28,605 nt of DNA from a virus, in IMG/VR virus record IMGVR_UViG_3300009079_002276, positions 1 to 28,605 of that record. The stretch is one strand, 5' to 3'. The notes under the pieces are model-generated. The model did not search any database, had not been told where the DNA came from, and saw only the letters and a program-made list of their open reading frames with translations. A program made the position numbers and the translations under genes. Shown here one piece after another: positions 6,501-28,605 of the stretch; within the stretch, counting starts at the first letter, position 1; each line of letters begins with the position of its first letter.

Positions 6501-8975
6501 ATGAAATCCACCATATGTGGTGTCAATCTCTACACTATTTGTAAACAATGCTGATTGTGTGAAGTTGGTCGCAGCGTCGACATTAAACGTACCACCACCA
6601 TTAATGTTAAAATTACTCGCTGCAGAAGTTTCAACATCTGTATTTCCTAGAATTGTAGAACTGCCGGTGAAGTCTGTATTCGCATTAATTACAATACCAC
6701 CCGATCCGTGAACTAATAAATTACCATCTTGGGTGTCAATTGTTGTCTTATTAAGATTGGTAGTCTCGTGTACTACCAGAGTGCCTATATCTGATATATT
6801 AGCAGATACATTATTCAGCGATACATCAGATATGAAATTCACTGGTTGATCTGTTTCAAAAACAACTCCACCAGTACCTACAATATTGAAACTATCATTC
6901 AGTGTTGATGTGATGTCAAGACCATTATGTATAGTGGTCTTACCATAAATGTTTGTAGTAGAGTTAATAGCCAGGCGATTATCACCTACATCAGTACCAA
7001 ACTTAATCAACCCAACTCCAGTAACTAAAAACTCTTCACTATGTTCAAGATTTATGCTAATATTACTATATGTTTGTATATCTTTGTAAAAGCTCGTTAT
7101 ACCATCAAACTGCACCTCATCCTCAAAAGTAGCGCTTCCCTCAACACTCAATGTACCTAATGTTAATTTATTGTCTATATATACATTTGTGTCTTCAGTA
7201 AAATTAACATCACCTGTACCTTTAAAAGTTGATCCATTTAAGCTAGTATCTACGATCATATCGTAGGCTGTAGCTGTCCCTGAGAGTGTTATATTTTGAT
7301 TAAAGAAACTAGGTGCACCGACGATCATCGCTCCGTCACCGGTGACAATAAATTCAGCATCAGTCCCTTCAAATGTATTTGTATCTATGGATGTGCCTCT
7401 CAGGTATGTTTCACCATTAACATTCAGATTATTAGTTATCTCAGCACCTAAGTCATTAGCTATATATAAACCACCTTCACCAATCACCTCAACACTACCC
7501 TGTAGTCCACCATTATTTGAAGTGTCGAGTTTTGTATTGTTATAGAATATAGAAGTACCTGTAGATGTGAAGTTACCCTCAAAATCTACTCCATTAGTTG
7601 TCGCGACGTAAAGTCTCTCTGTACCTGTTACTGACATCTGACCATCGGTAGTATCAACAGTCAGCTTATCAACTTCTGTTGGTTTACGAACAATTAGATT
7701 AGAGTCTATCAAAAATTCACCAGAAGAGTCTACATGCAAACCCTTATCACCGGTGATATACATCTTACCGTCAGTCGTATCTACTGTCAATTGATCTACT
7801 TGAGTATGAGCATCAATATCAATTGTAGTGTCTATGTTCATTCCACCAGCACCGATGATTTTGAATTCACCCTCTGTGGTATCTACTGTTAGTTGATCTA
7901 GTTGAGTGTGTCCATCAACATCCAGCGTTGTGTCGATATTAACTCCACCTATTGTATTGATTAGTAGTTCTTGATCACCTTGCACTAACATGCGACCATC
8001 ATCAGTATCTACCGTCAATTGATCTAGTTGAGTATGTTCATCAACATCCAATATAGTATCGATATTGACACCCGCACTAGTAGATATTCTAACTTCATGT
8101 GACCCACTAACTACCATCTCGCCATCAAATGTATCGACGGTGAGCTGATCTAGAAATGTATGTTCATCAATATCAACGACATTATCAATATCGACCGGTG
8201 TGTTAACATATATCAATCCATCACCACTAACAATCATATTACCGTCAGTTGTATCAACAATCAATTGATCTACATATGATGTATCATTAACATGTAATCC
8301 ACCCTCAATATATAACGATCCAGTAACACCTGGATCTGCTTGTGACGTCTGTTGATAGTCACTTGTTGAATCCTCAGGATCACCTACAACACTAACACTA
8401 CCTACAATAGTCATTCTTTGATTAGGTCTATCAACGTCCGGTAAATTGCCGAGGTTGATACCTAACCACCCTCCTAGTAAATCTGAGTCACCTGCGCTAC
8501 CAGTAATGAGTAGAGTAGACTTTCCGTCATTTCTTATATCAACCAAATCATTTGATCCATATTGATCAACATGTAATGCAGCAGTTTTTCCATTACTATT
8601 ATCTGCTACAACAACAATCTCAGTGGCACTTGTTGTATAAACTTGTGTATGTAGATATGTTAGTTCACCAAAAGCTGACAAATTACCAGTAATAGTAACA
8701 TCACCATCGATATATGTACTGTCTCTAAAAACATTCCAACCAACCGGTGCCGGCATACCCCATGGGATGGTATCAAGATTACTTCTATCAGATCTCGGAC
8801 CATTCAAAATATATTCATTGCTAGCACTTACTAGACCACTAATAACAAAGTCACCCATGAATGGAAAATCATGACTCGCTATAGGGTCTAGACCACTATC
8901 AACAATATGAGGACTTGGGAGTGTATGATGATTCGCAGAGTGAAACTTATTATGAAACTTTCTATTACCGGCCAT
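1..8975 (-). CDS. Giant repeat-rich virion fibre protein (5' part, at least 2,991 codons, C-terminus outside window)
   Basis: A single minus-strand frame stays open from the ATG at 8975 to the left edge; the repeat tryptophan codons keep one register all the way to position 12, so I see no frameshift. The first ~50 residues (MAGNRKFHNKFHSANHH...) look like an attachment region. Next come 34-42-residue repeats around LDQLTVDTTDG, then many short beta-type segments of the GDLxVxG kind, three copies of a GIINVGD...DLGS...W block typical of phage tail fibres, and a non-repeated globular stretch at about 3965-4450. The rest (1-3563) is 14-residue repeats alternating with a ~110-residue module. Composition is rich in S, T, N and D and poor in Cys, as in long fibres. 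It lies downstream of two other large structural genes and has its own late promoters. The role as tail fibre or appendage is inferred from architecture; the receptor-binding end is not visible. Confidence 0.88.
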   Translation of the reverse strand, partial: MAGNRKFHNKFHSANHHTLPSPHIVDSGLDPIASHDFPFMGDFVISGLVSASNEYILNGPRSDRSNLDTIPWGMPAPVGWNVFRDSTYIDGDVTITGNLSAFGELTYLHTQVYTTSATEIVVVADNSNGKTAALHVDQYGSNDLVDIRNDGKSTLLITGSAGDSDLLGGWLGINLGNLPDVDRPNQRMTIVGSVSVVGDPEDSTSDYQQTSQADPGVTGSLYIEGGLHVNDTSYVDQLIVDTTDGNMIVSGDGLIYVNTPVDIDNVVDIDEHTFLDQLTVDTFDGEMVVSGSHEVRISTSAGVNIDTILDVDEHTQLDQLTVDTDDGRMLVQGDQELLINTIGGVNIDTTLDVDGHTQLDQLTVDTTEGEFKIIGAGGMNIDTTIDIDAHTQVDQLTVDTTDGKMYITGDKGLHVDSSGEFLIDSNLIVRKPTEVDKLTVDTTDGQMSVTGTERLYVATTNGVDFEGNFTSTGTSIFYNNTKLDTSNNGGLQGSVEVIGEGGLYIANDLGAEITNNLNVNGETYLRGTSIDTNTFEGTDAEFIVTGDGAMIVGAPSFFNQNITLSGTATAYDMIVDTSLNGSTFKGTGDVNFTEDTNVYIDNKLTLGTLSVEGSATFEDEVQFDGITSFYKDIQTYSNISINLEHSEEFLVTGVGLIKFGTDVGDNRLAINSTTNIYGKTTIHNGLDITSTLNDSFNIVGTGGVVFETDQPVNFISDVSLNNVSANISDIGTLVVHETTNLNKTTIDTQDGNLLVHGSGGIVINANTDFTGSSTILGNTDVETSAASNFNINGGGTFNVDAATNFTQSALFTNSVEIDTTYGGFHVTSPDLDDWQNLDFANIFNVSAPTVFESLTANSRYLPIIFNGDNKTIFNTPVQFTNETPIQAVDVVVDGTLEANAASLHNVVINTNGSEFQIVGNNRSIFNTDAYFSNNVHIAGDLRVDGNAYLSAGAGGIINVGDSDNDTVIFKSEIGSDIVPDSDSLFSLGNNFARWFNAWVVSINATEIDAVNINTNGLTATGDSKLTNTHIGGQLTLEQGFTTDGSVDIGGTLNVSDGIDTDGDLHVAGSQTISQSLSVTQPSRFQSDLQIDGDLHVDGDVFFNLIGNDGSVVIGNDLTDTISLVGDISGNFIPTITDSFDLGSVTNKWKYLYSVDIDTYDLTVHNSGFVAGTLSIGDQLYVADEGTFANGASINTGSRGFTVNGSSQGAAFNVPNVLIHSYTFDVSAHTYLDQLTIDTTEGGVYIHGGDNDSTSNILDVDVPTELDQLSVDTTDGPMTVSGENDLNITTNVNIVGQLSAVNGPWVFDSCDFLGYNPGAVNPVDQSDGTVENVTYTQMPFHPFRVECNALFNSGLTAHGPVQIGELPNEIVDELPEPTFEVLGNMHLAQGNLKIESDIRHLHDENTYLRFIPDGITLAAGGGDLLKLVENTNSNNHVEIGSFDAAADVTFYLQDGTGPGLEFDSSTGDLSVAGDLVVSGAMNSTFTTLNTDTISAKTLVVDYLTVYEGSYGNVGGGHGSGSSAMSTLSGIARKDEVTNHWVLGNNQSFQGSELGVVYDVSTQDQEYMQNFWSITFEALEDNVTLGIQQGDIQTLNYHFVSKWDDFYSEAFVNEVESGIVYTSSNPFANVNSVVLSATEVPTTERIVKLIARTEVDAKFWINNVLVQDKPQRLQTVTTSDFDVDGNLTVVGDQIHQGNSTVHGTLSATSGVAVSGNVSLENDLHVKGDLYVDGNAYLSAGADGIINVGDTDLDSVIFNSEIASNLQPSQNMSFDLGSVDKHWMNIYTHNVSAHGDVYWDGGSSTQLNSTHASVLATSADWDSTHASVLATSSNWDSTHASMLATSGDWDSTHTSVLNTSADWNSTHASVNTTSGDWDSTHTSVLNTSADWNSTHASVNTTSGDWNSTHASVLATSSDWDSTHASVNTTSGDWNSTHTSVLNTSSDWDSTHASVLATSSDWDGAHTFVSSDSATNNTDYNRTNYVNTSGDIITGDLDITGHLSGTTAVFTSITALSSVVDVIDIKVRELSGYDIIDGDLTVGGHISASGDVYLNEHSLIFSDGETFSSIDSINTKSTHVSVLNTSGDWNSTHASVLATSGDWNSTHASVLATSGDWNSTHASVLATSGDWNSTYASVNTTSADWDSTHASVLATSSDWDSTHASVLATSSNWNSTHASVLATSGDWNSTHASVLATSSDWDSTHASVLATSSDWNSTHASVLATSSNWDSTHASVLATSAYWDSTHASVLATSSDWDSVYNLVNNTSGEGFANLEFDDVSQKLVLKDDQVPRLAITHVDRVENPSLVSNLTNIKRGDFVIVTATQENLIAIIDDPDGTYYPNIDEYNGYEKLFAPGNIVQFVNGYQGPSITLDSDDINDFHGSHKFVSQEQIDNWKSTNTSVSSTSGDWDSVYSWVNGDSATNNTNYNNTTFVNTSGDTISGDLAVVGHLSGTTAVFTSITALSSVVDVIDIKVRELSGYDIIDGDLRVDGSISTDGDIIISDEHVSIEDVLRFKSTHTSVHNTSGDWDSTHASVNTTSADWNSTHTSVHNTSGDWNSTHASVNTTSADWNSTHASVLATSSDWNSTHTSVLNTSADWNSTHASVLATSSDWDSTHASVNTTSADWDSTHASVLATSSNWDNTHASVLATSSDWDSTHVSVNTTSADWNSTHVSVNTTSADWDSTHASVLATSSDWNSTHTSVLATSSDWDGAYTFVNSDSATNNTNYNNTTFVNTSGDTISGDLNITGHLAGTTAVFTSITALSSVVDVIDIKVRELSGYDIIDGDLTVGGHISASGDVYLNEHSLIFSDGETFSSIDSVNTKSTHASVLATSADWNSTHASVLATSADWNSAHASVLATSADWNSTHASVLATSSDWDSTHTSVVATSSNWDSTHASVLNTSGDWNSVHASVLATSADWNSTHASVLATSSNWDSTHASVLATSADWDSTHTSVLNTSSDWDSTHASVLATSSDWDSTHTSVLNTSSDWDST
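504..851 (-). repeat. Inter-array fibre module, copy 1
   Basis: About 115 residues containing SATNNTNY, NTSGDTISGDL, TTAVFTSITALSSVVDVID, VRELSGYDIIDGDL and a C-terminal part with HISASGDVYLNEHSL. The same module recurs at 1438-1755 and 2756-3099, each time between two 14-residue arrays. Confidence 0.85.
852..1437 (-). repeat. 42-bp tandem array B (14 units)
   Basis: Fourteen in-frame 42-bp units with tryptophan codons at 855 through 1401 at constant spacing. It has the same consensus as array A, with many VNTTSADW/NSTH variants. Confidence 0.93.
1438..1755 (-). repeat. Inter-array fibre module, copy 2 (diverged C-terminal part)
   Basis: Its N-terminal half matches copy 1 almost base for base (NTSGDTISGDL, SSVVDVIDIKVRELSGYDIIDGDL). 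Its C-terminal half differs (SISTDGDIIISDEHVSIEDV instead of HISASGDVYLNEHSL). Two more 14-residue-like units follow at about 1756-1815, and then a unique segment of ~130 residues (1816-2213). Confidence 0.82.
2214..2755 (-). repeat. 42-bp tandem array C (13 units)
   Basis: Thirteen in-frame 42-bp units with tryptophan codons at 2217 through 2721. Neighbouring units around 2595-2720 are nearly identical at the nucleotide level, which suggests recent unit duplication. Confidence 0.93.
2756..3099 (-). repeat. Inter-array fibre module, copy 3
   Basis: The C-terminal half is nearly identical to copy 1 (HISASGDVYLNEHSL, SDGETFSSIDSINTKS). The middle matches copy 2 at the base level, and the N-terminal part differs from both (NRTNYVNTSGDIITGDLDIT). 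Confidence 0.83.
3100..3563 (-). repeat. 42-bp tandem array D (11 units)
   Basis: Eleven in-frame 42-bp units with tryptophan codons at 3102 through 3522. A two-unit block (VLNTSADWNSTH then VNTTSGDWDSTH) is itself repeated at about 3258-3448, giving a higher-order 84-bp period. This is the array nearest the N-terminal part of the protein. Confidence 0.93.
7640..8290 (-). repeat. Degenerate 34-42-residue repeats (LDQLTVDTTDG type)
   Basis: At least six copies of H-x-x-(L/V)DQLTVDTTDGxM-x-(V/I)-x-G followed by a short IDTTLDVD-like strand. Copies start at plus coordinates near 7791, 7893, 8019, 8145 and 8265, so spacing is 102-126 bp. Related single copies occur near 7665 and 5160-5280. The pattern suggests stacked beta-structure in the N-terminal shaft; the structure is inference. 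Confidence 0.75.
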
Positions 8976-8982
8976 ATATTAT

Positions 8983-8990: not shown

Positions 8991-9036
8991 TCTGGTATAC
9001 AGATTTAATCATAAAAAAACCTCTAACTATGTCACA

Positions 9037-9044: not shown

Positions 9045-9081
9045 TATAACATTCACTATTAAATAATAACAAAATTAAATG

Positions 9082-14997: not shown

Positions 14998-15153
14998 TTA
15001 AATTAAACCTAAGTAGCGTTTTCTGAGATGCTCGCGAAGTTTATCTTGTGAGTCGTCAGTTGATGTTTGTTCTGTTGTAGTTTCTTGAACTTCACTTACA
15101 ACTTCATCATCTACTTCAGGTGTGTCTGGGGTTATTTCTTCTGTATCTGCCAT
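14998..15153 (-). CDS. Small acidic protein (51 aa), function unknown
   Basis: Starts at the ATG at 15153 (MADTEEITPDTPEVDD). The first ~38 residues are strongly acidic and T/E/D-rich; the end is basic and possibly helical (DKLREHLRKRYLGLI). The frame extends upstream to 15222 without a stop, but that would overlap the previous gene, and the late promoter octamer at 15159-15166 ends five bases before this ATG. It is followed by the large structural gene, so it may be a small virion or assembly factor. I recognise no family. Confidence 0.6.
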   Translation of the reverse strand: MADTEEITPDTPEVDDEVVSEVQETTTEQTSTDDSQDKLREHLRKRYLGLI

Positions 15154-15158
15154 GTATA

Positions 15159-15166
15159 TATTTATA
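15159..15166 (-). promoter_or_regulatory. Late promoter TATAAATA, 5 nt before an ATG
   Basis: Exact T4-type late octamer on the minus strand, then five bases (TATAC) and the ATG at 15153. The expected start of transcription falls on the ATG itself. It likely serves the 51-aa gene and the two structural genes after it. Confidence 0.65.
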
Positions 15167-16664: not shown

Positions 16665-17245
16665 TTAGATATAATCTTGGTTGTAGCTATGAACATGTCA
16701 TCATTCATCGCGTAAAACATCTCTACAACTGTGTCCTGAAACGTCTTCACTTGCTCGTCTGTCATGTTAGTGCTGTATGCAAAGCTTGGAGCTCTATCAC
16801 CTGCACGTACATTGATACCTGTGTGACCTAATGCAGCTCCATCTTTTGTGTATGTGATGCTCACACTACATTTACCTTTGGGTTGTATGATACCACCGCT
16901 CGTAAACTCTTTATGTACAATTAAATCATCACCATCCACTTCGATAGGAGCTTTGATGATACTCTGTAAGACGTTAGCTATGCCGGTGTTGAATAGTCGC
17001 TGCCATGCCACTGCTCCGAAGCTATCCAAACCAGGTATCTCCCAACAAAAATTGATCGCATCATCACTGTAGATAAAATCATTTTTTAACACATCTTCAT
17101 GATCGATCATACCATCAGCTTCAACAAGCATGGGGCTTCTGAATGTGACGATGTTACCAATAGGTAGCGTCCTGTTCTTGAAAAATGTATATGCGAATCT
17201 TCGGTGAATTAAATCACCATCATAATTGTTAACGTTTACTATCAT
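16661..17245 (-). CDS. DUF366-like protein (194 aa)
   Basis: The order of motifs matches what I know of DUF366, a family of about 180-200 residues best known from archaea: YDGDLIHRRFAY near the start, IGNIVTFRSPM, MIDHEDV, IYSDDAINF, GDDLIV and SVSITYTKDGAALGHTGINV. The C-terminus is helical (DEQVKTFQDTVVEMFYAM). The function of the family is not established to my knowledge. It leads an operon with clamp-loader and co-chaperonin genes and has its own sigma70-type promoter with only six bases between the -10 box and the ATG. An early or middle expression class is inferred from that promoter. Confidence 0.7.
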   Translation of the reverse strand: MIVNVNNYDGDLIHRRFAYTFFKNRTLPIGNIVTFRSPMLVEADGMIDHEDVLKNDFIYSDDAINFCWEIPGLDSFGAVAWQRLFNTGIANVLQSIIKAPIEVDGDDLIVHKEFTSGGIIQPKGKCSVSITYTKDGAALGHTGINVRAGDRAPSFAYSTNMTDEQVKTFQDTVVEMFYAMNDDMFIATTKIISK

Positions 17246-17251
17246 ACATCG

Positions 17252-17280
17252 ATTATACGGTATTTGTGATGTGAAATCAA
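17252..17280 (-). promoter_or_regulatory. Sigma70-type promoter TTGATT-N17-TATAAT, 6 nt before ATG
   Basis: On the minus strand the -35 TTGATT is at 17280-17275, then a 17-bp spacer, TATAAT at 17257-17252, six bases (CGATGT) and the ATG at 17245. The +1 predicted by standard spacing is the A of the ATG. The -35 overlaps the 3' end of the preceding gene. Confidence 0.75.
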
Positions 17281-18459: not shown

Positions 18460-19165
18460 ATAAGGAAATATTTAAGAGTTTACCTATTAGTGTTGGTGAA
18501 TTTAAGATTACATCTCTAGACATACTGACAATGTTACAGCCTCCATCAGTTAACATTTTATTATAAAGCATAACACAGTAATTATCTGTGATGTCAATAT
18601 TTGTGTCTGTGGTAAATTGTTTAAAATTACGATAATCAATCGGAGCTATTAGTTTACTGTTTAAGCAAAAGCATTCTTGAGGAAATTTATCAGTATGCTC
18701 AATTAATTCTAGCGATCCTAATGTGTTCCATTCTAAAGGTTGGTTTGATGATAATATGACATTTAAACTATTTAAGTATGATGTCATTACTTTACCGCCA
18801 CTCCGGCTAGCCATCAAATTAACTGAATAGTTTGTGCTTGCTTTATAACCAATGAAATCGTACGTCTCTAACAATTTGTAAATGTCGTCAAGTGATTTAA
18901 GCAATATGCAATCAGAATCCATCCATATACCACCATGTTTAGCTAGTAGAGCGACCCTGATGTAATCCGCTACATGAGCTATTTCTTTTAGTTTATATAA
19001 ATTTTTAGGTAGATTGTCTAGGTAGTCAGTTACGTTGCTTCTATTAACTATGTGAACATTAACGTTATCACCAATGTGTTTATATATTGTTTCTCTGCAT
19101 AGCAATATCCAAGCTGGTGTTTCACTAGCCTCGATATTATCCCAGTATAAAAATAAATTATTCAT
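18428..19165 (-). CDS. Capsular-polysaccharide-type glycosyltransferase with DxD (245 aa)
   Basis: The signature ADYIRVALLAKHGGIWMDSD (residues 66-85) with Asp83-x-Asp85 is the hallmark of the GT32 / Caps_synth GT-A group: the helix reading the substrate, then GGxYxDxD binding the metal and nucleotide sugar. The N-terminus (LFLYWDN) fits the first strand of the fold. There is no membrane segment, so it is cytosolic. It follows the ParB-like gene with five bases between them. Donor and acceptor sugars cannot be read from the sequence. Confidence 0.82.
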   Translation of the reverse strand: MNNLFLYWDNIEASETPAWILLCRETIYKHIGDNVNVHIVNRSNVTDYLDNLPKNLYKLKEIAHVADYIRVALLAKHGGIWMDSDCILLKSLDDIYKLLETYDFIGYKASTNYSVNLMASRSGGKVMTSYLNSLNVILSSNQPLEWNTLGSLELIEHTDKFPQECFCLNSKLIAPIDYRNFKQFTTDTNIDITDNYCVMLYNKMLTDGGCNIVSMSRDVILNSPTLIGKLLNISLYEKQLKNIKS

Positions 19166-19170
19166 CGAAT

Positions 19171-20046
19171 CTATATATTAATTACTCTGGTTTGTTTTAT
19201 ATTTAATTTCATTAAAATAGCAATTCTATGTAACCCGTCAACAATTGTATTATTATTTACGATAATAAGTGATTTTTTACCGTCAGCTTTATAGTTTGGG
19301 TCATACGAGTCAATAAGTCTATCAAACGCTTCGCAGAAATGATTTTCTTGCAACTCTTTACCTATGTGTTTATTTACATAATATTGGTACTCAGACTTAT
19401 CTCCCTTTACATATTTGAAGTGAGGTGAGTCTTTAACTTTTATTAAGCCTTTCCCCAAGACATTACATCTCAAGTCTGATATGTTAACTTCTGTTTCTGA
19501 GATGTCTGAAGATCTGACGGTGAGGTGCCACGGGATATGGTAGTCGATGGTATCATATCGACTGTAATAACTTGTATTATTTAAATTAAAATATTTTAAT
19601 AAGTAATCTGTTTGGGATTGATAGTCTGTAGCATGTATAACATGCTCATGGGAAATGCCCCTCGGTAAAGGGTTTATTTGCTGATTTACATTTTTAAATT
19701 TAGGATTATATTTTGATCTTATTCGAGTTTTTAAGTCTGTAATATTCTGGCATTGTATGTGTCTGAATTCACCATCACCAACCATTTGCTCTCGAGGGAT
19801 CAAATTCTTAACTATAATCACCATACATTTCTGAGGAGCGGTATGTAAGTATTTTGATTTAGATTTAAGATGTCCCCAAGGTACTGTGTCGCACTCGTAT
19901 ACATCTCTAATAAAAGATTCTGTGTTAGTGAAAGAGTGATATTTTAATCTAACAACTTGAAAATTAGAATCGATAGCAATTTCATCAACAATTTCTGGTA
20001 CACAATTTAAACCATTGCCCCAAATAATTAGTATGTCATACCTCAT
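19171..20046 (-). CDS. Unknown N-terminal domain fused to a ParB/Srx-like C-terminal domain (291 aa)
   Basis: The C-terminal ~100 residues contain ISDLRCNVLGKGLIKVKDSP, a run of helices (EYQYYVNKHIGKEL...FDRLIDSY) and SLIIVNNNTIVDGLHRIAIL. The VDGxHR signature is the ParB/sulfiredoxin-like active-site loop. The N-terminal part (LIIWGNGLNCVPEIVDEIA; GISHEHVIHATDYQSQTDYL) belongs to no family I can name; the HEHVIHATD block looks like an active-site segment. The gene lies inside a glycosyltransferase cassette, starting in a TAATG overlap with the fucosyltransferase gene. ParB-fold proteins in polysaccharide loci are usually not partitioning proteins; a kinase- or transferase-like role is possible but unproven. 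Confidence 0.6.
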   Translation of the reverse strand: MRYDILIIWGNGLNCVPEIVDEIAIDSNFQVVRLKYHSFTNTESFIRDVYECDTVPWGHLKSKSKYLHTAPQKCMVIIVKNLIPREQMVGDGEFRHIQCQNITDLKTRIRSKYNPKFKNVNQQINPLPRGISHEHVIHATDYQSQTDYLLKYFNLNNTSYYSRYDTIDYHIPWHLTVRSSDISETEVNISDLRCNVLGKGLIKVKDSPHFKYVKGDKSEYQYYVNKHIGKELQENHFCEAFDRLIDSYDPNYKADGKKSLIIVNNNTIVDGLHRIAILMKLNIKQTRVINI

Positions 20047-20798
20047 TATATTTCAATCCAATCTGCTGGAATTAAATCATCAGCATTCATATCTGGGTCT
20101 ACGAACCATTTACCTGGAACTATAACTTTCTTATGCATATCATTACTTAGCCATGCACCCCACCAGCTCAAGCTGCTATTCGCTATTATGTTGCTAGAAC
20201 ACTTTGACATCATGTAAATGATTGAGTCAGCATTTGCTTCGCTTGAGAATACAAACCTATCACCAGTAAAAACTGACTTGCACCAATCAATATCATCTGA
20301 AAATATTAAAAACCTGTCACAATCTACCATCTTCATCGCTTGATCGTAGTAGTCGATGTCTAAGTTTAGATGGTAGTGTTTTAGTTTTGTATAATCACCT
20401 CTTCTCACATGCAAAGAACATAATTGATCGAGCGCTAGATCATCATGACTAACGTGATCAAAACAAAAAGAATCAAGTATAACGCCTCTATTGTGTTCAA
20501 AATATTTATGTGATTGAAAATATCCACTCAAGACACAATCAGTCAAATTGTGAGGTATGCTGTCATACTGAAATCTAGGCTCAGTGTACCTGTTACTTGG
20601 CACAGCATCATTAATCGTCAATTTAGTGAAGATGGTACTTAGATATGTGTTTGGAGACTCTCCTTGACTGGCATGCCAGCTGTTTATTAAGGGTTTGGAT
20701 ATTATAAACTCCTGAGATGTATCTGTTGCATGAGAAATCCCCGCAGCTAACTGAAATAACTGATTGCCGAGACCACCCTTCAATAAACTCGCGATCAT
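20046..20798 (-). CDS. GT11-family alpha-1,2-fucosyltransferase-like enzyme (250 aa)
   Basis: The N-terminal GGLGNQLFQ (residues 8-16), the LHVRRGDY motif (129-136) that binds GDP-sugar, and SSLSWWGAWLS near residue 205 are the three conserved GT11 blocks. The protein should transfer fucose (or a related sugar) from GDP-fucose in alpha-1,2 linkage to a galactose-type acceptor in the cytosol. The ATG immediately follows the TAG of the GT25-like gene (TAGATG), so translation is likely coupled. No GDP-fucose synthesis genes are in the window, so the donor must come from the host or another locus. Confidence 0.9.
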   Translation of the reverse strand: MIASLLKGGLGNQLFQLAAGISHATDTSQEFIISKPLINSWHASQGESPNTYLSTIFTKLTINDAVPSNRYTEPRFQYDSIPHNLTDCVLSGYFQSHKYFEHNRGVILDSFCFDHVSHDDLALDQLCSLHVRRGDYTKLKHYHLNLDIDYYDQAMKMVDCDRFLIFSDDIDWCKSVFTGDRFVFSSEANADSIIYMMSKCSSNIIANSSLSWWGAWLSNDMHKKVIVPGKWFVDPDMNADDLIPADWIEI

Positions 20799-21431
20799 CT
20801 AGCAATTATACGCTACTTTTCTACCCTCAATATCACTAAAATCATCTAGCTGTTTTCCACATCTAGTCAAGAACCATGAGTCCTTGCTTTGGAATTTTTT
20901 CCAAACTTGATCACAAGCCCACAATTGTGGTCTAGAACCACTCATCAACCGCTCCACACTCTCTTGAAACACAGGCAATAACACATCACAAAAATCAACA
21001 TTGATTATATATCCGCATGTTGTTTGTATATTCTCACCCCTCATGAGCAAGTCACACACTGGGTATGTACATCCATATCTCTCATTAAACGCAACTTGAC
21101 ACACATCAAAATTTTTATGATTTTGAAATAATCGAGATATGCGTAAGTCTATCTCCAATGAATTGAGTGTAGGTTTAAAGTCATCCTCCAAAACGATAAC
21201 ATATTTAAATCCGTTTTGTTTCGCATGATCGTAAACTGATATGTGTGACAGCGTACAACCGGATGCGCGCTTCCCAGCAGTTCCATGTCCTGTTGTGTCA
21301 GTTGCGCTCATTCGCGTGTATTCACCTTCACATGCCTTAAAAGCAGGCAACACATTGGACAATACATGTTCGTTCCTGTCTGTGCGTTTATCAAGATTTA
21401 TATAATATAAGTGATCTATATTGCTGTTCAT
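20799..21431 (-). CDS. GT25-family LPS-type glycosyltransferase (210 aa)
   Basis: INLDKRTDR (11-19), GCTLSHISVYDHA (58-70) and VIVLEDDF (78-85, with Glu82-Asp83-Asp84) are the standard GT25 landmarks found in LOS/LPS galactosyltransferases. The protein is cytosolic and its length is near the family norm. Its ATG overlaps the stop of the upstream gene as TGATG. The acceptor is unknown. With GT11, GT2 and Caps_synth-type neighbours it probably builds one branched oligosaccharide. Confidence 0.88.
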   Translation of the reverse strand: MNSNIDHLYYINLDKRTDRNEHVLSNVLPAFKACEGEYTRMSATDTTGHGTAGKRASGCTLSHISVYDHAKQNGFKYVIVLEDDFKPTLNSLEIDLRISRLFQNHKNFDVCQVAFNERYGCTYPVCDLLMRGENIQTTCGYIINVDFCDVLLPVFQESVERLMSGSRPQLWACDQVWKKFQSKDSWFLTRCGKQLDDFSDIEGRKVAYNC

Positions 21432-22174
21432 CAGAATGAATATTTGTCAATTGTTCCAGTTTGCCGGTTTGTTAGATTGACAGGTGAGTGATATAAATGA
21501 ACAGCAACACTATTACAATTACTCACTATTTTAGTGTCTGGATATTTCTCTAGAATTTTATCACACAAAGCCTTCTCCTCACCTCCCCACCCTACAATAT
21601 CTTCGAAGCCACCAACACCTTTAAAATGTTCTGTTTTAACTGAAAAATTACCACCGTATGGAAAATCACTTGACCACTGCTTATTGTATGTCATCGCGCT
21701 ACCCTCGACATGTCGATCCGGTCCGATCCATCCACTGTCTTCACACTCTTTCATGAGCTGTTTGTAGCTCAAGCTATCATTTTGTATGGAATTTAATGAG
21801 TGGTGAGTCGTATTATACACAGGTCCGAAGATAATATTATTTTCCAAATCTGGATCTGCATGATGATCCGCAAACCTGCTCGTCAAAACACAATCACCAT
21901 TTGTAAACAATACGCGATCACCTGTGGATAAATTCATTACTGCATCCTTCCAGTTAGAAGCTAGTGTATATTTATCAGCTTTGCTTCGCGAATTGGACCA
22001 CACCTTTACATCATATTGCTTGATTAAATCCAGGGAACCATCAGTGCTTTGATCGTCCGCAACAATTATTTCAATTTCATCACAGAACTTACACTTCATG
22101 TTGATTGCACTGTCTAGACAGTGCTTTAATCTAGTCCTTTGGTTGTACGATGATATTATAACACTAATCTTCAT
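21431..22174 (-). CDS. GT2/GT27-like glycosyltransferase with galactosyltransferase C-terminal domain (247 aa)
   Basis: The N-terminus SVIISSYNQRTRL and IIVADDQSTDGS (37-48) mark a GT-A, GT2-type fold; FTNGDC near residue 92 stands in for the DxD. The C-terminal FPYGGNFSVKTEHFKGVGGF followed by WGGEEKALC is the Glyco_transf_7C-type block (galactosyltransferase, WGxED-like) known from polysaccharide polymerases and polypeptide GalNAc-transferases. It overlaps its upstream neighbour by ATGA. A Gal or GalNAc donor is suggested by the C-terminal block but not proven. Confidence 0.85.
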   Translation of the reverse strand: MKISVIISSYNQRTRLKHCLDSAINMKCKFCDEIEIIVADDQSTDGSLDLIKQYDVKVWSNSRSKADKYTLASNWKDAVMNLSTGDRVLFTNGDCVLTSRFADHHADPDLENNIIFGPVYNTTHHSLNSIQNDSLSYKQLMKECEDSGWIGPDRHVEGSAMTYNKQWSSDFPYGGNFSVKTEHFKGVGGFEDIVGWGGEEKALCDKILEKYPDTKIVSNCNSVAVHLYHSPVNLTNRQTGTIDKYSF

Positions 22175-22950
22175 GGTTTGATATTCTTTAAAAAATCTAT
22201 TACCTGTTGTTTACTATCTTCAGGTTGTTCGTTACTGCAAACATTGATACCATATCTATCATGAAACGTCTTCACTCCATGAATAAAATTGTCCTTCCAC
22301 TCCTCATCATTCCGAATTTTACTCTCAACAAGATCCGGATCTTGGTCACCAATAAAATCACTACTGTTTTCAATATCTGCGAACCATCTGAACGGAGGGT
22401 GGTGACCTGCTTGAATGATTCTCATAGTATGGTCAACATGTTCCATTGCATTCTTATAAACATCATCCATTAAACCACACTCATCTATAACTTCACTTGT
22501 ATAATAACTAACCGCACCAGTAACATTATGGTATAGGGCCATCTTGATGTCCTTGTAGTCTATCAATAATTTAACGGCAGGTACATCCAATCTCATGTTG
22601 GCATCCCCATGCAAACAAAAATTGAAATGTTTCACACCACTGAGCTCCGCTAGCTTGATATACTGGCTCGTGACATGTTCATTTTTAAAAACAACATCAT
22701 CCTCTACTATAAACAGATTGTCACAATTACTTTCGATTAAGTTTCTGATAGCTATATTCTTAGATTCACCAACTCCGAGGTTCTTGTCATTGTTTATGAT
22801 TTGATAATCTCCCTTAGGTATCTCATCAGACCCATCATTAACAACAACGAGTTGTTCAAATTTCGCGCTGTGTGTGTCGAGTACTGAATTAATACAGCGC
22901 TCGAACATAGGAACTCTATCACATGTAATTATTGCAATTCCGGTAGTCAT
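22171..22950 (-). CDS. GT2-like glycosyltransferase, first gene of the glycan cassette (259 aa)
   Basis: Starts MTTGIAIITCDRVPMF; LVVVNDGSDE is the nucleotide-binding strand, GVGESKNIAIRNL the conserved helix of GT2-type enzymes, and FIVEDDVVF the DxD-type metal site. HVDHTMRIIQAGHHPP is a probable acceptor-side motif. I use the ATG at 22950; a TTG at 22986 would add 12 hydrophobic residues but would read through the -10 region. A sigma70-type promoter ends seven bases before this ATG, and no other clear promoter is seen before 17277, so it probably drives all eight cassette genes. Confidence 0.82.
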   Translation of the reverse strand: MTTGIAIITCDRVPMFERCINSVLDTHSAKFEQLVVVNDGSDEIPKGDYQIINNDKNLGVGESKNIAIRNLIESNCDNLFIVEDDVVFKNEHVTSQYIKLAELSGVKHFNFCLHGDANMRLDVPAVKLLIDYKDIKMALYHNVTGAVSYYTSEVIDECGLMDDVYKNAMEHVDHTMRIIQAGHHPPFRWFADIENSSDFIGDQDPDLVESKIRNDEEWKDNFIHGVKTFHDRYGINVCSNEQPEDSKQQVIDFLKNIKP

Positions 22951-22957
22951 CAATAAT

Positions 22958-22986
22958 ATTATAGTGTATAACCCACTTAAAATCAA
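22958..22986 (-). promoter_or_regulatory. Sigma70-type promoter TTGATT-N17-TATAAT for the glycan cassette, 7 nt before ATG
   Basis: On the minus strand -35 TTGATT is at 22986-22981, then a 17-bp spacer, TATAAT at 22963-22958, seven bases and the ATG at 22950. The -35 shares two bases with the plus-strand late octamer of phoH, so the two promoters cannot be bound independently. Confidence 0.75.
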
Positions 22987-22992
22987 TAAATA
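22985..22992 (+). promoter_or_regulatory. Late-type octamer AATAAATA, 6 nt before the phoH ATG
   Basis: AATAAATA on the plus strand, six bases (TAATTA), then the ATG at 22999. It matches the NATAAATA late form. There is no Shine-Dalgarno. It overlaps the divergent sigma70-type -35. Confidence 0.55.
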
Positions 22993-22998
22993 TAATTA

Positions 22999-23757
22999 AT
23001 GACAAAACGAAAATCCTCATATAAACGATCATCTTCAAAGAACCGCAAGGATGCAGACATTGAAGAGATACCCGAGATTATAACACGCAACTCAATGGAC
23101 CGGAATTTCAAAATACAAACCAAATATGAATTAACAGATGTACATAAAAGCTTCGTTGAGTTGTGTTTTTGTAATGATACAAAAATTGCATTTATAGATG
23201 GCCCGGCTGGTACAGCGAAAACATACTGTGCTGCTTACGCTGGATTGAATCTACTAAAATCACATCGTGTAGATGAGATTGTTTACATAAGAAGTATAAT
23301 AGAGAGCGCTAGTAAGAGTATGGGGAGCCTCCCGGGAGAAGTGGATGATAAATTTCTCCCATGGACATTACCTTTACAGGAGAAACTAAGTGAATTGATA
23401 TCAAGCTCCACGATATCAACACTGTTCTCAACGAATACAATAAAAGCCATCCCGGTCAATTATGTTAGAGGTCTTACATTTAAAGACAGTCTAGTGATTG
23501 TTGATGAAGCTCAGAACTTAACCAGGAGTGAATTGATAACAATTCTAACGAGATTTGGTGAAGATAGTAAAATGTTAGTTATCGGTGATACATTGCAGAG
23601 TGATATTAACGGAAAGAGCGGTTTTAGCGATATATATAACAAGTTCAATGATATAGAGAGTGAGCAAAATGGAGTTTTTTGCTTTAAATTTGAGAATAAG
23701 GATATTTTAAGGAGTCAAATGTTGAAATTTATAGTTAAAAAGTTGGGATCGAAGTAA
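22999..23757 (+). CDS. phoH: PhoH-like P-loop ATPase (252 aa)
   Basis: Walker A GPAGTAKT (68-75), the PhoH-specific SLPGEVDDKFLPW (110-122), and Walker B VIVDEAQN (166-173), followed by ILTRFGEDSKMLVIGD (sensor I region). The N-terminal ~30 residues are very basic and serine-rich (TKRKSSYKRSSSKNRK) and may bind nucleic acid. PhoH genes are common in marine phages; the cellular role is debated (ATP-dependent RNA/DNA helicase-like or phosphate-related). It is one of only three plus-strand genes here. The gene after it starts eight bases past the stop. Confidence 0.92.
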   Translation: MTKRKSSYKRSSSKNRKDADIEEIPEIITRNSMDRNFKIQTKYELTDVHKSFVELCFCNDTKIAFIDGPAGTAKTYCAAYAGLNLLKSHRVDEIVYIRSIIESASKSMGSLPGEVDDKFLPWTLPLQEKLSELISSSTISTLFSTNTIKAIPVNYVRGLTFKDSLVIVDEAQNLTRSELITILTRFGEDSKMLVIGDTLQSDINGKSGFSDIYNKFNDIESEQNGVFCFKFENKDILRSQMLKFIVKKLGSK

Positions 23758-24044: not shown

Positions 24045-24282
24045 GAGCTTTTTGAAATTCTTTTAACACTTTCTTAGGATCACGCTCTTCTCTACTAAGA
24101 ACTTGATTACCATCATTATCTTCGGTGTAAATAGCCTTTGATTGTGATTGGAATTCACGTTTAAAACTCTCAACAAACTCGTCACTAAGCTTTAATTTTG
24201 ATGGATATCTCTCTCTAACTACGGTTTTGTGTATACCAAAGTTTTCAAAAACGTTATCGATGGTCTCATTAAAATTCTTCAT
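24028..24282 (-). CDS. Small charged protein (84 aa), function unknown
   Basis: MKNFNETIDNVFENFG... is probably mostly helical, with a conserved-looking FKREFQSQSKAIYTEDNDGN middle and a coiled C-terminus (DPKKVLKEFQKALKFLI). No motif or family is recognised. Its ATG lies five bases after a TATAAATA octamer, whose last bases also form the stop codon of the upstream kinase-like gene. So it can be transcribed late independently of that gene. It converges on the phoH operon. Confidence 0.6.
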   Translation of the reverse strand: MKNFNETIDNVFENFGIHKTVVRERYPSKLKLSDEFVESFKREFQSQSKAIYTEDNDGNQVLSREERDPKKVLKEFQKALKFLI

Positions 24283-24286
24283 GTAA

Positions 24287-24991
24287 TTATTTATAGATAT
24301 TGAAGTCTACATCACCCTTTTCGCTCAAATCTGGTACAGGCATACCAAATTCATCATAAATTGACGATGCATCCACAAGAGTTTCATCTTCTCCAAACAT
24401 ATTACCCTTATCATTCAAATAAAACTCTAACATTTTGATTCTCTCCTCAGTAGTACCAAAGATCTCAATTAATGCAGCACGGTCTTCCTTAGGAAAAAAT
24501 CTTTCATCATCTTTCGCCCAGCTACTGTACATAGCTTTGAAAAAATTATCAATTTCTGAGATAAACTCAGCGTCTGTCTCTCGGACACCATCGTCTTCTA
24601 TATCATTCTGCGCAACATTAGTGATTGGTATAATTAGAACTATATCCAACATCTTCATGGACTCTCTAACTATAGGTATGCATTTCTCAACAAAGAGTTC
24701 ATCAATATCTCCTACATTTTTATGAAAAGCCCACATGGAATGCACTAAATTATCGATCGGACATCTATCAAAGATTATATGATCTGTATCACTATATCCC
24801 TGCATGTTGTCAATCATATGATTGAGTATATTCCATTGAGTCTCTTTGTTTGTATCTTTACTGTGGTTGTCCTTCGGTAGTATATCTCTATATGACTCCT
24901 TTGGAGTGGTGTACATATCCCAATGTTCTAAGAAACTTTTAAGTAATGTACTTTTACCTTGTGCGGCAGTCCCGGAAATAGCTAATCTCAT
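24287..24991 (-). CDS. P-loop NTPase, deoxynucleotide/NadR-kinase-like (234 aa)
   Basis: Walker A GTAAQGKST (7-15) directly at the N-terminus and HIIFDRCPIDNLVH near residues 71-84 (the DR-x-x-x-D catalytic segment) are as in NadR, AAA_28 and thymidylate-kinase-like proteins. A LVIIPIT-like strand follows, then ERIKMLEFYL. It probably phosphorylates a small substrate such as a nucleotide; the exact substrate is not evident. The length is typical. It stands 33 bp downstream of queE. No convincing promoter is seen in that gap; it may be read through from the queD-queE transcript. Confidence 0.75.
   Translation of the reverse strand: MRLAISGTAAQGKSTLLKSFLEHWDMYTTPKESYRDILPKDNHSKDTNKETQWNILNHMIDNMQGYSDTDHIIFDRCPIDNLVHSMWAFHKNVGDIDELFVEKCIPIVRESMKMLDIVLIIPITNVAQNDIEDDGVRETDAEFISEIDNFFKAMYSSWAKDDERFFPKEDRAALIEIFGTTEERIKMLEFYLNDKGNMFGEDETLVDASSIYDEFGMPVPDLSEKGDVDFNIYK
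24288..24295 (-). promoter_or_regulatory. Late promoter TATAAATA embedded in the stop codon of the kinase-like gene
   Basis: The minus strand reads TAT AAA TAA as the last codons (Tyr-Lys-stop) of the upstream gene; the octamer TATAAATA lies inside them and ends five bases before the ATG at 24282. It is an exact late consensus. Confidence 0.65.
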
Positions 24992-25024: not shown

Positions 25025-25816
25025 CTACACGCCTGTTAATTTGTCCCAAGCACTAACATGCAGCCTTGTCAATCCAATATAACCATACTTTTTAGCCATT
25101 TCTAAGCAGAATTTTGTTCTCTCATGAAAGTTTTCTTGACTATCCAAACCAGGCATCATGAGAACTTTATTTGCTGGAATATCAAATGGTTTAATGAAAT
25201 CTTCTTCTATCTCCTTCAGACAATCTTCTGTACTTATAACGAACTTGAACCAATAGTTCTCATGCTGCATGATTCTCTCAATCGCGCTAGGTACGATGCG
25301 TCTATCCTTGTTCATACCACTATTTGCTAGCTTGACACTACAATTGATTTGATCAATCATGTCAAATAAATCTGTTTGCATGTATATCGTACCATTTGTT
25401 TCTATCTCATTGAAGGTCTTTGAGAACCTACCAGTTTTCTCGAGACATTGCTCCTTCAACCATGCATGAAATGCAGGAATTGCTCGCTGATGTTTGGGTA
25501 TTGTAGGTTCACCACCAGTCCAGATAAGATGTATCCTGCCATCATATATCCATTGATCAATGCCTTCGGATTCCCATTGTTGTAGTAACTTGTAAAATGG
25601 TTTTTGAAGACCCCTACGCCATACTGCTTCAGTATCACACCACCACGTTGCATCACCAGACTTCATCAAACTACCGTTAGGTCCACCACACATTAGATTG
25701 CATGCCTTTAGTCGGATGAAATATGCAGGATACCCGATAGTGTGTCCTTCACATTGAACTGAATAGAAACTCTCTGAAAGATCTAGTGTTGTTGGTTGCT
25801 CTGTATTTGTACTCAT
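25025..25816 (-). CDS. queE: 7-carboxy-7-deazaguanine synthase, QueE-like radical SAM enzyme (263 aa)
   Basis: FYSVQCEGHTIGYPAYFIRL (17-36) matches the QueE FxSxQGEGxxxGxPxxFxR start (with Cys22 for Gly), and WTGGEPTIP is the SAM-binding GGEP motif. Cluster cysteines are Cys39-x3-Cys43 and Cys60 in WWCDT, giving C-x3-C-x16-C instead of C-x3-C-x2-C. It converts 6-carboxy-tetrahydropterin to 7-carboxy-7-deazaguanine, on the way to preQ0, queuosine or deazaguanine-modified phage DNA. The ATG at 25816 lies one base after the TAA of queD, with GGGGA upstream as ribosome-binding site; an upstream in-frame start at 25852 would overlap queD. Confidence 0.88.
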   Translation of the reverse strand: MSTNTEQPTTLDLSESFYSVQCEGHTIGYPAYFIRLKACNLMCGGPNGSLMKSGDATWWCDTEAVWRRGLQKPFYKLLQQWESEGIDQWIYDGRIHLIWTGGEPTIPKHQRAIPAFHAWLKEQCLEKTGRFSKTFNEIETNGTIYMQTDLFDMIDQINCSVKLANSGMNKDRRIVPSAIERIMQHENYWFKFVISTEDCLKEIEEDFIKPFDIPANKVLMMPGLDSQENFHERTKFCLEMAKKYGYIGLTRLHVSAWDKLTGV

Positions 25817-25817
25817 A

Positions 25818-26423
25818 TTAAATTCCCCACAAATTAGTAGATTTAGTATCAACCCATTTGTTTGTAGTTTTACTGTTGTTTGTGTTTATGGATGCTCCGT
25901 CTGAATCAGGTGTTGGTTGTTTTATATTATCTGTTGCATGAGTGTTGATCGAATCAATTGTATCTACACTGTCAGTAACTTTGTGTGTTTGTTTTGAATA
26001 TATTGCGGAATTGTTCTCATGTTCAAATACTTCAGCTTTGGCGCATCTACATCTACCATCAGTCATTTGCTGTACAAATTTATCAGCAGTCAAACAACAC
26101 CACTCTGCAAAACGCTCAACACCTACACCATTTTCTAAAATATTGAGCACTAATATGTTCTTTTGCTCTAAGTCACGAAACACATCAATATGTGGGTCAT
26201 CTGCTGCAATCACTGTGGTGTGATCAAACATATCTTGAAATATGAGTTTGAGCTTTTTGAGTCCTCCGAAATCAACAACCCAGTTGTTTTCATCGAGATC
26301 ATCAGCCTCAAACCAAAATTTTGCTGTGAGTCTATATCCATGTAACAATGAGCAATGGGACTTGGCTCGTGGTTGTCTGAACGCACAGCTGCCTAATTCT
26401 ATAATCTTAGTACTACTAAACAT
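25818..26423 (-). CDS. queD: QueD-like 6-carboxy-tetrahydropterin synthase with altered zinc site (201 aa)
   Basis: The PTPS/QueD core spans residues 1-142: catalytic Cys24 in HCSLLHGY, DFGGLK (51-56), the Asp67-His68 pair in FDHTT, Glu103 in GVGVERFAEW (for the PTxExxA helix) and the end motif EVFEHENNSAIY (131-142). The usual HGH is HGY (His28, Tyr30) and the FxAAH histidine is absent (GSCAF). Residues 143-201 are a T/S/N/D-rich tail ending WVDTKSTNLWGI, not present in bacterial QueD. The enzyme would convert dihydroneopterin triphosphate to 6-carboxy-tetrahydropterin for QueE, whose gene follows directly. FolE and QueC are not in the window. Confidence 0.83.
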   Translation of the reverse strand: MFSSTKIIELGSCAFRQPRAKSHCSLLHGYRLTAKFWFEADDLDENNWVVDFGGLKKLKLIFQDMFDHTTVIAADDPHIDVFRDLEQKNILVLNILENGVGVERFAEWCCLTADKFVQQMTDGRCRCAKAEVFEHENNSAIYSKQTHKVTDSVDTIDSINTHATDNIKQPTPDSDGASINTNNSKTTNKWVDTKSTNLWGI

Positions 26424-26429
26424 CCGTTT

Positions 26430-26459
26430 ATTATAGTATATATCGTATCAATTATCCAA
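26430..26459 (-). promoter_or_regulatory. Sigma70-type promoter TTGGAT-N18-TATAAT for queD-queE, 6 nt before ATG
   Basis: TATAAT at 26435-26430, then six bases (AAACGG) and the ATG at 26423. The best -35 is a weak TTGGAT with an 18-bp spacer, inside the 3' end of the preceding gene. The -10 spacing to ATG is the same as at 17245. Confidence 0.55.
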
Positions 26460-26711: not shown

Positions 26712-26910
26712 TGTCTGTCTTTTCGATCAAGTCTATAGCTTCAGGTATGAGCCTAGCTTGTTCTTTGGATAATGTTATAATGAAACCATCATCATCACGA
26801 ATTTGTATTGTGTTTGCATTTTTATTATACACTTGAGGACATCTCTTGCCTCCACAGCATAAAATCACACTATCATTAACTTTATCATGTTTTAGATTTT
26901 TATTTTTCAT
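26704..26910 (-). CDS. Small Cys-containing protein (68 aa), function unknown
   Basis: Lysine-rich start, then VILCCGGKRCPQVY (three cysteines that might bind metal, CCxxxxC) and IQIRDDDGFIITLSKEQARLIPEAIDLIEK, which reads as a strand pair followed by a helix. No named family is recognised. The ATG overlaps the stop of the upstream gene as ATGA. An AATAAATA lies ten bases upstream, inside the end of the upstream gene. Confidence 0.62.
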   Translation of the reverse strand: MKNKNLKHDKVNDSVILCCGGKRCPQVYNKNANTIQIRDDDGFIITLSKEQARLIPEAIDLIEKTDND

Positions 26911-27335: not shown

Positions 27336-27339
27336 TAAC

Positions 27340-27993: not shown

Positions 27994-28396
27994 AATCTCT
28001 ATAAAGATTCAATATAGCTGATAGGTCACAGCCACAATCATTGAGCAACTGCTCCAATTGACCTACATTTTTAGCGTTTATTATATCATCAATTTTATCC
28101 GACACTGTTTCATGATATCCACGAGTCATCAGATTATCAACCACATGTTTTTTAAATTTAGTTAGTGGATCTTCACATGGAGCATCAAGTTCATACTCCC
28201 CACTAGAAAGTGACATCGGTTCATTACCCATTGCTGGCACAATGGCTAAAACACCACCTGCTCCATCCTCCTCTAATACATAACCTACATAGTCATTAGA
28301 TTCACCTGCATCATTCGCTGGATCATATTTGACTCGAATGCGTGTAAGTTCAGTCCTATTTAACTGACTCTCCATTAATGAATTAAACTTCGACAT
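27977..28396 (-). CDS. Unknown phage protein (139 aa)
   Basis: Begins MSKFNSLMESQLNRTELTRIRVKYDPANDAGESNDYVGYVLEEDG; the stretch after it is beta-like and the second half helical (DPLTKFKKHVVDNLMTRGY, VGQLEQLLNDCGCDLSAIL). It looks like a soluble two-part protein; no family is recognised. The ATG at 28396 lies five bases after an AATAAATA octamer, making it the first gene of the leftward block 26448-28396. There is no Shine-Dalgarno. Confidence 0.65.
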   Translation of the reverse strand: MSKFNSLMESQLNRTELTRIRVKYDPANDAGESNDYVGYVLEEDGAGGVLAIVPAMGNEPMSLSSGEYELDAPCEDPLTKFKKHVVDNLMTRGYHETVSDKIDDIINAKNVGQLEQLLNDCGCDLSAILNLYRDYVTNE

Positions 28397-28401
28397 GGAA
28401 A

Positions 28402-28409
28402 TATTTATT
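28402..28409 (-). promoter_or_regulatory. Late-type octamer AATAAATA, 5 nt before ATG
   Basis: Minus-strand AATAAATA, then TTTCC and the ATG at 28396. It has the same geometry as at 15153 and 24282. Confidence 0.55.
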
Positions 28410-28417
28410 AAAACAAG

Positions 28418-28446
28418 TTGTTTTTACACCTAATTGTTACTATAAT
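28418..28446 (+). promoter_or_regulatory. Sigma70-type promoter TTGTTT-N17-TATAAT, 7 nt before ATG
   Basis: Plus-strand -35 TTGTTT at 28418-28423, 17-bp spacer, TATAAT at 28441-28446, then seven bases and the ATG at 28454. It has the same spacing as the glycan-cassette promoter at 22958-22986 and is divergent from the late octamer at 28402-28409. Confidence 0.68.
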
Positions 28447-28453
28447 ATGACAT

Positions 28454-28605
28454 ATGACTGATAAATCGAATAATTACGAGTGGTTAGGTGATGATGAACT
28501 AACTGGTGAAAAGGACACTATCGCAAGAGAGATCATGGGCGAAGAGTATAGTAGGGGGTATGCATCACCTATACGCGTATATGATACAAAAATTAATGCA
28601 GATAA
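28454..28605 (+). CDS. Start of a plus-strand gene (first ~50 residues; continues past the right edge)
   Basis: Opens at the ATG at 28454 as MTDKSNNYEWLGDDEL, continues with an acidic part containing REIMGEEYSRGY, and remains open to the window end. The segment is too short to assign. The support is an in-frame start directly behind a good sigma70-type promoter, and the lack of any competing minus-strand gene here. Confidence 0.55.
   Translation, partial: MTDKSNNYEWLGDDELTGEKDTIAREIMGEEYSRGYASPIRVYDTKINAD

Follow-up and report, generated by a model that had tools for sequence, protein, structure and literature searches.

Promoters placed at start codons predict leaderless mRNAs in an uncultivated lineage of T4-like aquatic phages

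Does a phage whose promoters end only a few nucleotides before its start codons dispense with the ribosome-binding leader as a rule, or does the arrangement in one fragment reflect chance, compaction or misplaced gene starts? The question was raised by a 28,605-nucleotide stretch of DNA from an uncultivated T4-like phage (the window; positions 1 to 28,605 of IMG/VR record IMGVR_UViG_3300009079_002276), in which the original prediction noted that the promoter core ends 5-7 nt before the ATG of nine operon-leading genes, four with promoters of sigma70 type and five of late type, none with a Shine-Dalgarno (SD) sequence, whereas genes inside operons use stop/start overlaps; from this it was inferred that leaderless initiation is systematic in the phage. 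The sites were read directly from the sequence, and all nine promoters were found at the positions and spacings claimed, without SD, so the observation is confirmed. Their coordinates and the behavior of orthologous starts are listed in Table 1.

Table 1. Promoters adjacent to start codons in the window (d, nucleotides between the promoter core and ATG).
Coordinates	Strand	Class	Promoter elements and spacing	Start codon and gene	Orthologous starts
8973..8989	-	Late	ATAAATA (8989-8983), N7	ATG 8975-8973, giant repeat-rich tail-fibre-like ORF	Late d=6 in two of four, degenerate late box in a third
15151..15165	-	Late	ATAAATA (15165-15159), N5	ATG 15153-15151, 51-aa ORF	None found; the weakest of the nine
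17243..17280	-	Sigma70	TTGATT (17280-17275), N17, TATAAT (17257-17252), N6	ATG 17245-17243, DUF366 gene (Pfam)	Kept in 11 of 11, d=6-7
22948..22986	-	Sigma70	TTGATT (22986-22981), N17, TATAAT (22963-22958), N7	ATG 22950-22948, glycosyltransferase-like gene	Kept in 7 of 9, d=6-8
22986..23001	+	Late	ATAAATA (22986-22992), N6; back to back with the 22950 promoter	ATG 22999-23001, phoH	Late d=6-7 in 8 of 11
24280..24294	-	Late	ATAAATA (24294-24288), N5	ATG 24282-24280, 84-aa gene	Late box d=5-7 in 8 of 12
26421..26459	-	Sigma70	TTGGAT (26459-26454), N18, TATAAT (26435-26430), N6	ATG 26423-26421, QueD-like gene (named from reading the sequence)	Kept in 17 of 17, 15 at d=6
28394..28408	-	Late	ATAAATA (28408-28402), N5	ATG 28396-28394, 139-aa gene	Late d=5-7 in 8 of 8
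28418..28456	+	Sigma70	TTGTTT (28418-28423), N17, TATAAT (28441-28446), N7	ATG 28454-28456, gene running off the contig	Kept at d=7 in 2 of 3

The simplest alternative is chance, because the GC content is 34-41% and both motifs also occur inside genes. However, five of the 11 copies of ATAAATA in the window lie 5-7 nt before the ATG of a gene, and an order-2 Markov model of the same upstream regions expects 0.12 late and 0.02 sigma70 hits (0.14 in total) at the window's 29 starts, against five and four observed (P <= 5e-5). Chance is contradicted by these figures, by the distance peaks described next, and by the absence of such starts in the equally AT-rich T4.

The original prediction had proposed plotting the distance from promoter to ATG across relatives, and this was done for 12 related records (~0.88 Mb). 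The distances from ATAAATA to ATG number 0, 10, 3, 5 and 1 at d=0-4, then 72, 34, 28, 12 and 20 at d=5-9; those from TTG-N16-18-TATAAT to ATG number 0 at d=1-5, then 45, 16, 6, 5 and 3 at d=6-10, over a background of about 2 per distance. The comparison heptamers TATTTAT and ATTAATA are flat, whereas TTAAATA and AAATAAT, which overlap the real motif, also peak; the reverse of ATAAATA cannot serve as a control because the heptamer reads the same backwards. Late boxes of T4 occupy -13 to -6, from A(-13) and a start about one helical turn downstream (PMC2988020), such that d=5 puts the A of ATG at +1; for TATAAT at -12 to -7 the corresponding distance is d=6. The one-base offset between the two peaks is therefore what the two promoter geometries require if the A of ATG is +1. 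Independent samples of terminase and gp23 loci repeat the peak, indicating a property of a whole lineage and not only of this contig.

The bases around the start codons agree with this placement. A pyrimidine, as in the usual -1/+1 initiator, precedes ATG at 96% of late sites with d=5 and 91% of sigma70 sites with d=6, and at 84% of all predicted leaderless starts against 50% of coupled starts. In the leaderless windows ATG is used 233 times, GTG 14 times and TTG four times. SD sequences of 4 nt or more precede 3-6% of predicted leaderless genes, compared with 18% of genes elsewhere and 20% of shuffled upstream regions; the genome-wide SD frequency is at background (about 0.15, against 0.67 in T4). 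About half of the non-coupled starts lack a strict adjacent motif, indicating that other initiation modes or weaker promoters exist. The stop/start overlaps within operons, which the original prediction named as the contrasting class, are real but ordinary for T4-like phages, being no more common than in T4 or S-PM2, and were rejected as a special feature.

An annotation artefact, with true start codons lying downstream behind ordinary leaders, was also considered, because several ORFs have further in-frame ATGs and start choice in metagenomic phages is uncertain. It is very unlikely: tblastn alignments of orthologues reach residue 1 (as in relatives of PhoH) and the spacing to that same ATG is kept, down to about 50% protein identity. 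Eight of the nine starts have orthologues, most of which keep the promoter. In the SAR11 phage HTVC008M, the seven such sites in the first 50 kb, those of the genes at 6280, 7562, 19456, 31132 and 49760 on the plus strand and 16007 and 18916 on the minus strand, fall exactly on starts annotated by the depositors.

The late promoters are of T4 type. The octamer NATAAATA is found without a -35 element, its seven core bases are intact at all five late sites of the window, and the base before the core is A, T or C, rarely G. It is the same octamer as the T4 late promoter TATAAATA read by gp55 (PMC2988020) and the cyanophage NATAAATA (PMC2984593). Homologues of gp55 were identified in eight relatives, including those labelled here G005, G012 and G001, but not in the window itself. 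Relatives also encode gp17, gp18, gp20, gp23 and gp46/47, the core genes of T4-like myoviruses (Straboviridae/Kyanoviridae relatives), which including gp55 have 25-40% identity to T4, while the window carries PhoH and a gp62-like clamp loader. No close phage isolate was found: there was no nucleotide match, the nucleotidyltransferase and the 1373-aa protein had no match, and the terminase and gp23 are at most 38% and about 35% identical, respectively, to those of isolates.

Coliphage T4 and two cyanophages show no placement of promoters at start codons. T4 and S-PM2 have no start at d=5-9; their nearest starts lie 12 nt or more downstream of the late box, mostly 19-37, leaving a leader. The SAR11 phages HTVC008M and Mosig and the OM43 phage Melnitz possess a minor set of late genes (8, 6 and 3, respectively) with ATG exactly 5 nt after ATAAATA, but keep SD at 58-69% of starts and show no sigma70 leaderless peak. 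Among bacteria, leaderless (TA-led) genes have a -10 box about 12 bp before the start, so that transcription and translation start together without SD (Zheng et al. 2011, PMC3160421); these were described for cellular genomes with host sigma factors, and are most frequent in Actinobacteria and Deinococcus-Thermus, whereas the phage lineage has a full -35/-10 and a second, phage-encoded promoter class. In Deinococcus-Thermus, an ORF-adjacent -10 motif with strict spacing drives leaderless expression of about a third of genes (Zhong et al. 2025, PMC12340547), but there TANNNT needs no -35, whereas the sigma70 sites of the phages carry TTG at 16-18 bp spacing. Leaderless genes with ORF-adjacent -10 boxes are thus known in bacteria; lineage-wide use by a T4-type phage was not found in a literature search that did not extend to subscription papers or preprints.

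The major capsid gene is the exception. gp23 keeps a structured leader with a hairpin and an SD, the SD-like AAGGA(G) being kept in 68% of 72 distinct starts, against 19% in neighboring genes, and some gp18 genes also keep leaders; a search of Rfam found no family in the gp23 leaders. This bears on the possibility that a host with ribosomes that ignore SD, as in Bacteroidota, imposes SD-free translation, promoter adjacency being a by-product of compaction. The background-level SD frequency of the lineage is in its favor, but it is unlikely given the SD of gp23. Moreover, coupled starts have A at -3 with a frequency of 0.40, the same as at neighboring positions, unlike the Kozak-like pattern described for Bacteroidota (PMC6847099). 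The early promoters are TTG-N17-TATAAT, not the -7 box TAnnTTTG of Bacteroidota, and compaction alone does not give sharp edges at 5 and 6 nt. Attempts to identify the host failed: a terminase-profile scan of GTDB genomes found only two distant hits (34%) in one Marinimicrobia MAG, ARAGORN found no tRNA in the close relatives and two in G001, and a comparison of bS21 with solved structures did not point decisively to any host.

The explanation favored with high confidence is that in this widespread lineage the promoter and the start codon are one unit, such that most operon-leading messages should begin at the AUG itself. In this view, host RNA polymerase with its main sigma factor and, late in infection, with the phage gp55-type sigma factor would start transcription on or 1-4 nt before the A of ATG; the mRNA would have no 5' leader and no SD, and would be translated by recognition of a 5'-terminal AUG, probably by 70S ribosomes, with downstream cistrons reached by translational coupling. 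Because a minority of genes, above all gp23, keep a leader, the host ribosome is probably SD-competent and leaderless placement would be the default of the phage rather than a necessity. The motif positions, the distance peaks, their conservation, the depletion of SD and the presence of gp55 were established by the analysis, whereas the transcription start, the leaderless state of the mRNA, 70S initiation and the SD competence of the host are inferred, no RNA 5' end being mapped for any member. The interpretation that leaderless initiation is systematic is supported, having passed every sequence test that was run, but it remains a prediction and is not universal. Additional upstream promoters could give leadered versions of some genes. 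It is also possible, though unlikely, that transcription starts mostly 2-6 nt before ATG and initiation is leadered but SD-independent: 57% of late sites within d=5-9 sit at d=6-9, giving predicted leaders of 1-4 nt, and spacings of 8-9 nt would leave 3-4 nt, short but not strictly zero. Against this, the modal spacings are exactly d=5 and d=6 with the pyrimidine just before the A of ATG, and start-site choice of RNA polymerase varies by a base or two, so that the modes overlap in function.

A further reading, possible but tentative, is that a large T4-type phage lineage has all but abandoned ribosome-binding sites, expressing operon heads by leaderless mRNAs from both host-type and gp55-type promoters and later cistrons by coupling, while the structured SD leader kept for the major capsid gene would give the phage two translation channels that could be tuned separately during infection, for instance by phage-encoded bS21 (present in G001 and in the relatives G020, G022 and G023). 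The link between bS21 and leaderless use is only a loose correlation, and was not adopted as the explanation.

A published attempt to predict middle and late promoters in SAR11 myophages was reported as unsuccessful (PMC7029224); in these abundant aquatic phages the promoter motif fixes the start codon, so that gene starts and operons can be annotated directly from sequence. Leaderless mRNAs in phages are known mainly as single cases such as lambda cI. A lineage in which the promoter doubles as the start-codon selector for most operons, in both temporal classes, would give a natural system for asking how leaderless initiation competes with SD-led initiation, why an SD leader is kept for the most abundant protein, and whether infection changes the ribosome.

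The 28,605-base IMG/VR record, a fragment of a viral genome, had no nucleotide match among 50,697 phage records. It encodes PhoH, DUF366, an AAA kinase-like protein and a gp62-like clamp-loader subunit and, by reading of the sequence, QueD-like and QueE-like proteins, glycosyltransferases and a giant repetitive tail-fibre-like protein. Relatives encode the T4 core proteins gp17, gp18, gp20, gp23, gp46, gp47 and gp55, but the terminase is at most 38% identical to that of any isolate; this is a T4-like myovirus lineage without a close isolate. The giant open reading frame (2991 aa, cut by the contig end) contains many near-identical repeats of about 14 residues (HASVLATSSDWDST). DUF366 together with the QueE-like and QueD-like genes suggests 7-deazaguanine synthesis, possibly for DNA modification.

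Features of the fragment and of related phages, with their coordinates
Record	Coordinates	Strand	Feature
IMG/VR fragment	3-8975	-	Giant tail-fibre-like ORF
IMG/VR fragment	16661-17245, 25025-25852, 25818-26423		DUF366 together with QueE-like and QueD-like genes
IMG/VR fragment	17277-22950		Cluster of seven or eight glycosyltransferase, methyltransferase and related genes under one predicted leaderless sigma70 promoter
IMG/VR fragment	22948-23001		Divergent gene pair with back-to-back promoters
IMG/VR fragment	28394-28456		Divergent gene pair with back-to-back promoters
G001 (relative)	80975-81127		Ribosomal protein bS21 gene
G020 (relative)	84906-85037		Ribosomal protein bS21 gene
G022 (relative)	39344-39463		Ribosomal protein bS21 gene
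G023 (relative)	70324-70455		Ribosomal protein bS21 gene
L226 (example among related loci L226-L305)	3891-4003		Conserved structured leader, about 110 nt upstream of gp23
L244 (example among related loci L226-L305)	3891-4003		Conserved structured leader, about 110 nt upstream of gp23

The original prediction placed nine promoters directly before start codons, and this observation was confirmed: all nine lie at the expected positions with the expected spacings. Both classes are good matches, the four sigma70 sites having TTG hexamers 17-18 bp upstream of a perfect TATAAT. Under an order-2 Markov model of the same upstream regions, 0.14 such sites are expected in 29 starts, whereas nine are seen. 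In the two divergent gene pairs, the gaps of 48-57 bp consist only of back-to-back promoters, one late and one sigma70; at 22986 the -35 hexamer of one touches the late box of the other.

The genome-wide distance analysis that had been proposed as a test was extended to relatives because the record is only a fragment; these were found through PhoH and the nucleotidyltransferase, and whole records were retrieved. In 12 records (0.88 Mb, 568 occurrences of ATAAATA), with genes called by a simple longest-ORF method, the number of motifs ending at a given distance from an in-frame gene-start ATG is 0, 10, 3, 5 and 1 at 0-4 nt, then 72, 34, 28, 12 and 20 at 5-9 nt, and then falls to a background near 2-3. 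For TTG-N16-18-TATAAT (237 sites) it is 0 at 1-5 nt and 45, 16, 6, 5 and 3 at 6-10 nt. Some records may be near-duplicates, but removal of duplicate sites leaves the peak (51 of 57 late sites at 5 nt in the close set). The T4 late box spans -13 to -6 (PMC2988020). TATAAT spans -12 to -7. If the A of ATG is +1, the distances must be 5 and 6, and both peaks, with their sharp left edges, fall exactly there; this one-base offset between two independent promoter classes is the strongest evidence.

There are other, independent signs. Transcription prefers a pyrimidine at -1 and a purine at +1, and a pyrimidine precedes the ATG at 96% of late sites with a distance of 5 nt and 91% of sigma70 sites with a distance of 6 nt; the figure is 84% over all predicted leaderless starts and 50% at coupled starts. 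ATG is used almost alone (233 ATG against 14 GTG and 4 TTG), as expected if the terminal AUG is the main signal. A Shine-Dalgarno (SD) sequence of 4 nt or more occurs at 3% and 6% of late and sigma70 predicted leaderless starts, respectively, at 18% of other starts and at 20% of shuffled upstream sequences, but at 68-79% in T4. About half of the non-coupled starts lack a strict adjacent motif.

Orthologous starts keep the promoter and its spacing although the proteins have diverged to 50-70% and the spacer letters change: 17 of 17 for QueD, 11 of 11 for DUF366, 8 of 8 for the 139-aa gene at 28396, 8 of 11 for PhoH, 8 of 12 at 5-7 nt for the 84-aa gene and 7 of 9 for the glycosyltransferase, a tally that leaves out the 51-aa gene at 15153. 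This conservation also supports the start codons.

A terminase profile found 455 related viral contigs, and among the best 80 of these, the contigs long enough to analyse show the same peak and background SD. A gp23 profile found at least 555, and the genes neighbouring gp23 repeat the peak, with 53 at 5 nt and 2 at 4 nt. As controls, T4 and S-PM2 have no start at 5-9 nt, their distances lying mostly at 19-37 nt. The SAR11 phages HTVC008M and Mosig and the OM43 phage Melnitz have 8, 6 and 3 starts, respectively, at exactly 5 nt, and the seven sites in the first 50 kb of HTVC008M all fall on depositor-annotated starts; these phages keep SD at 58-69% of starts. The arrangement exists in part, then, in cultured phages, which makes it testable. 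Genes for ribosomal protein bS21, which affects SD recognition in Bacteroidota, are present in four relatives and in HTVC008M, Mosig and Melnitz, the three cultured phages with predicted leaderless late starts, but not in T4 or S-PM2; this is a correlation only.

These results support the interpretation in the original prediction that leaderless initiation is systematic in this phage, although as a prediction from sequence. In this view, host polymerase would act early at TTG-N17-TATAAT and a gp55-type sigma factor late at NATAAATA, both starting transcription on or just before the ATG; the leaderless mRNA would be bound through its terminal AUG, probably by 70S ribosomes (a mode reviewed in PMC9031893), and downstream cistrons would be coupled. 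Coupling itself is ordinary, in proportions that match those of T4 and S-PM2. The motif positions, the distance peaks, their conservation, the depletion of SD and the presence of gp55 homologues were established by the analysis, whereas the site of transcription initiation and the mode of translation are inferred from them.

ORF-adjacent -10 boxes and leaderless genes are well described in bacteria (PMC3160421; PMC12340547), as are the late promoters of T4 and cyanophages (PMC2988020; PMC2984593), the latter without this placement so far as was found. A paper on SAR11 myophages reports that prediction of middle and late promoters was unsuccessful (PMC7029224). No paper describing leaderless use in T4-like phages was found in the open-access literature searched.

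The predicted leaderless arrangement has exceptions. The tail-sheath gene gp18 is mixed, switching among close relatives (loci L142-L221) between predicted leaderless arrangements, many at 5, 6 or 9 nt, and leadered arrangements with 18-20 nt. The major capsid gene gp23 is not leaderless: of 72 distinct starts, none has a late box within 50 nt, and 68% carry an SD of 4 nt or more, against 19% in neighbouring genes. Upstream of gp23 is a conserved hairpin (GAGGC...GCCTGA) with paired changes (T/A, G/C) in the variants GAGGT/ACCTGA and GAGGG/CCCTGA, often followed by a second hairpin ending in GGTCGA, and then AAGGA(G); no Rfam family matches this leader. Because the host has not been identified, a host-imposed loss of SD remains possible. 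Nevertheless, as an inference that rests on sequence only, the gp23 leader suggests that the host ribosome can read SD, that leaderless placement is therefore not forced, and that the most abundant protein uses another route.
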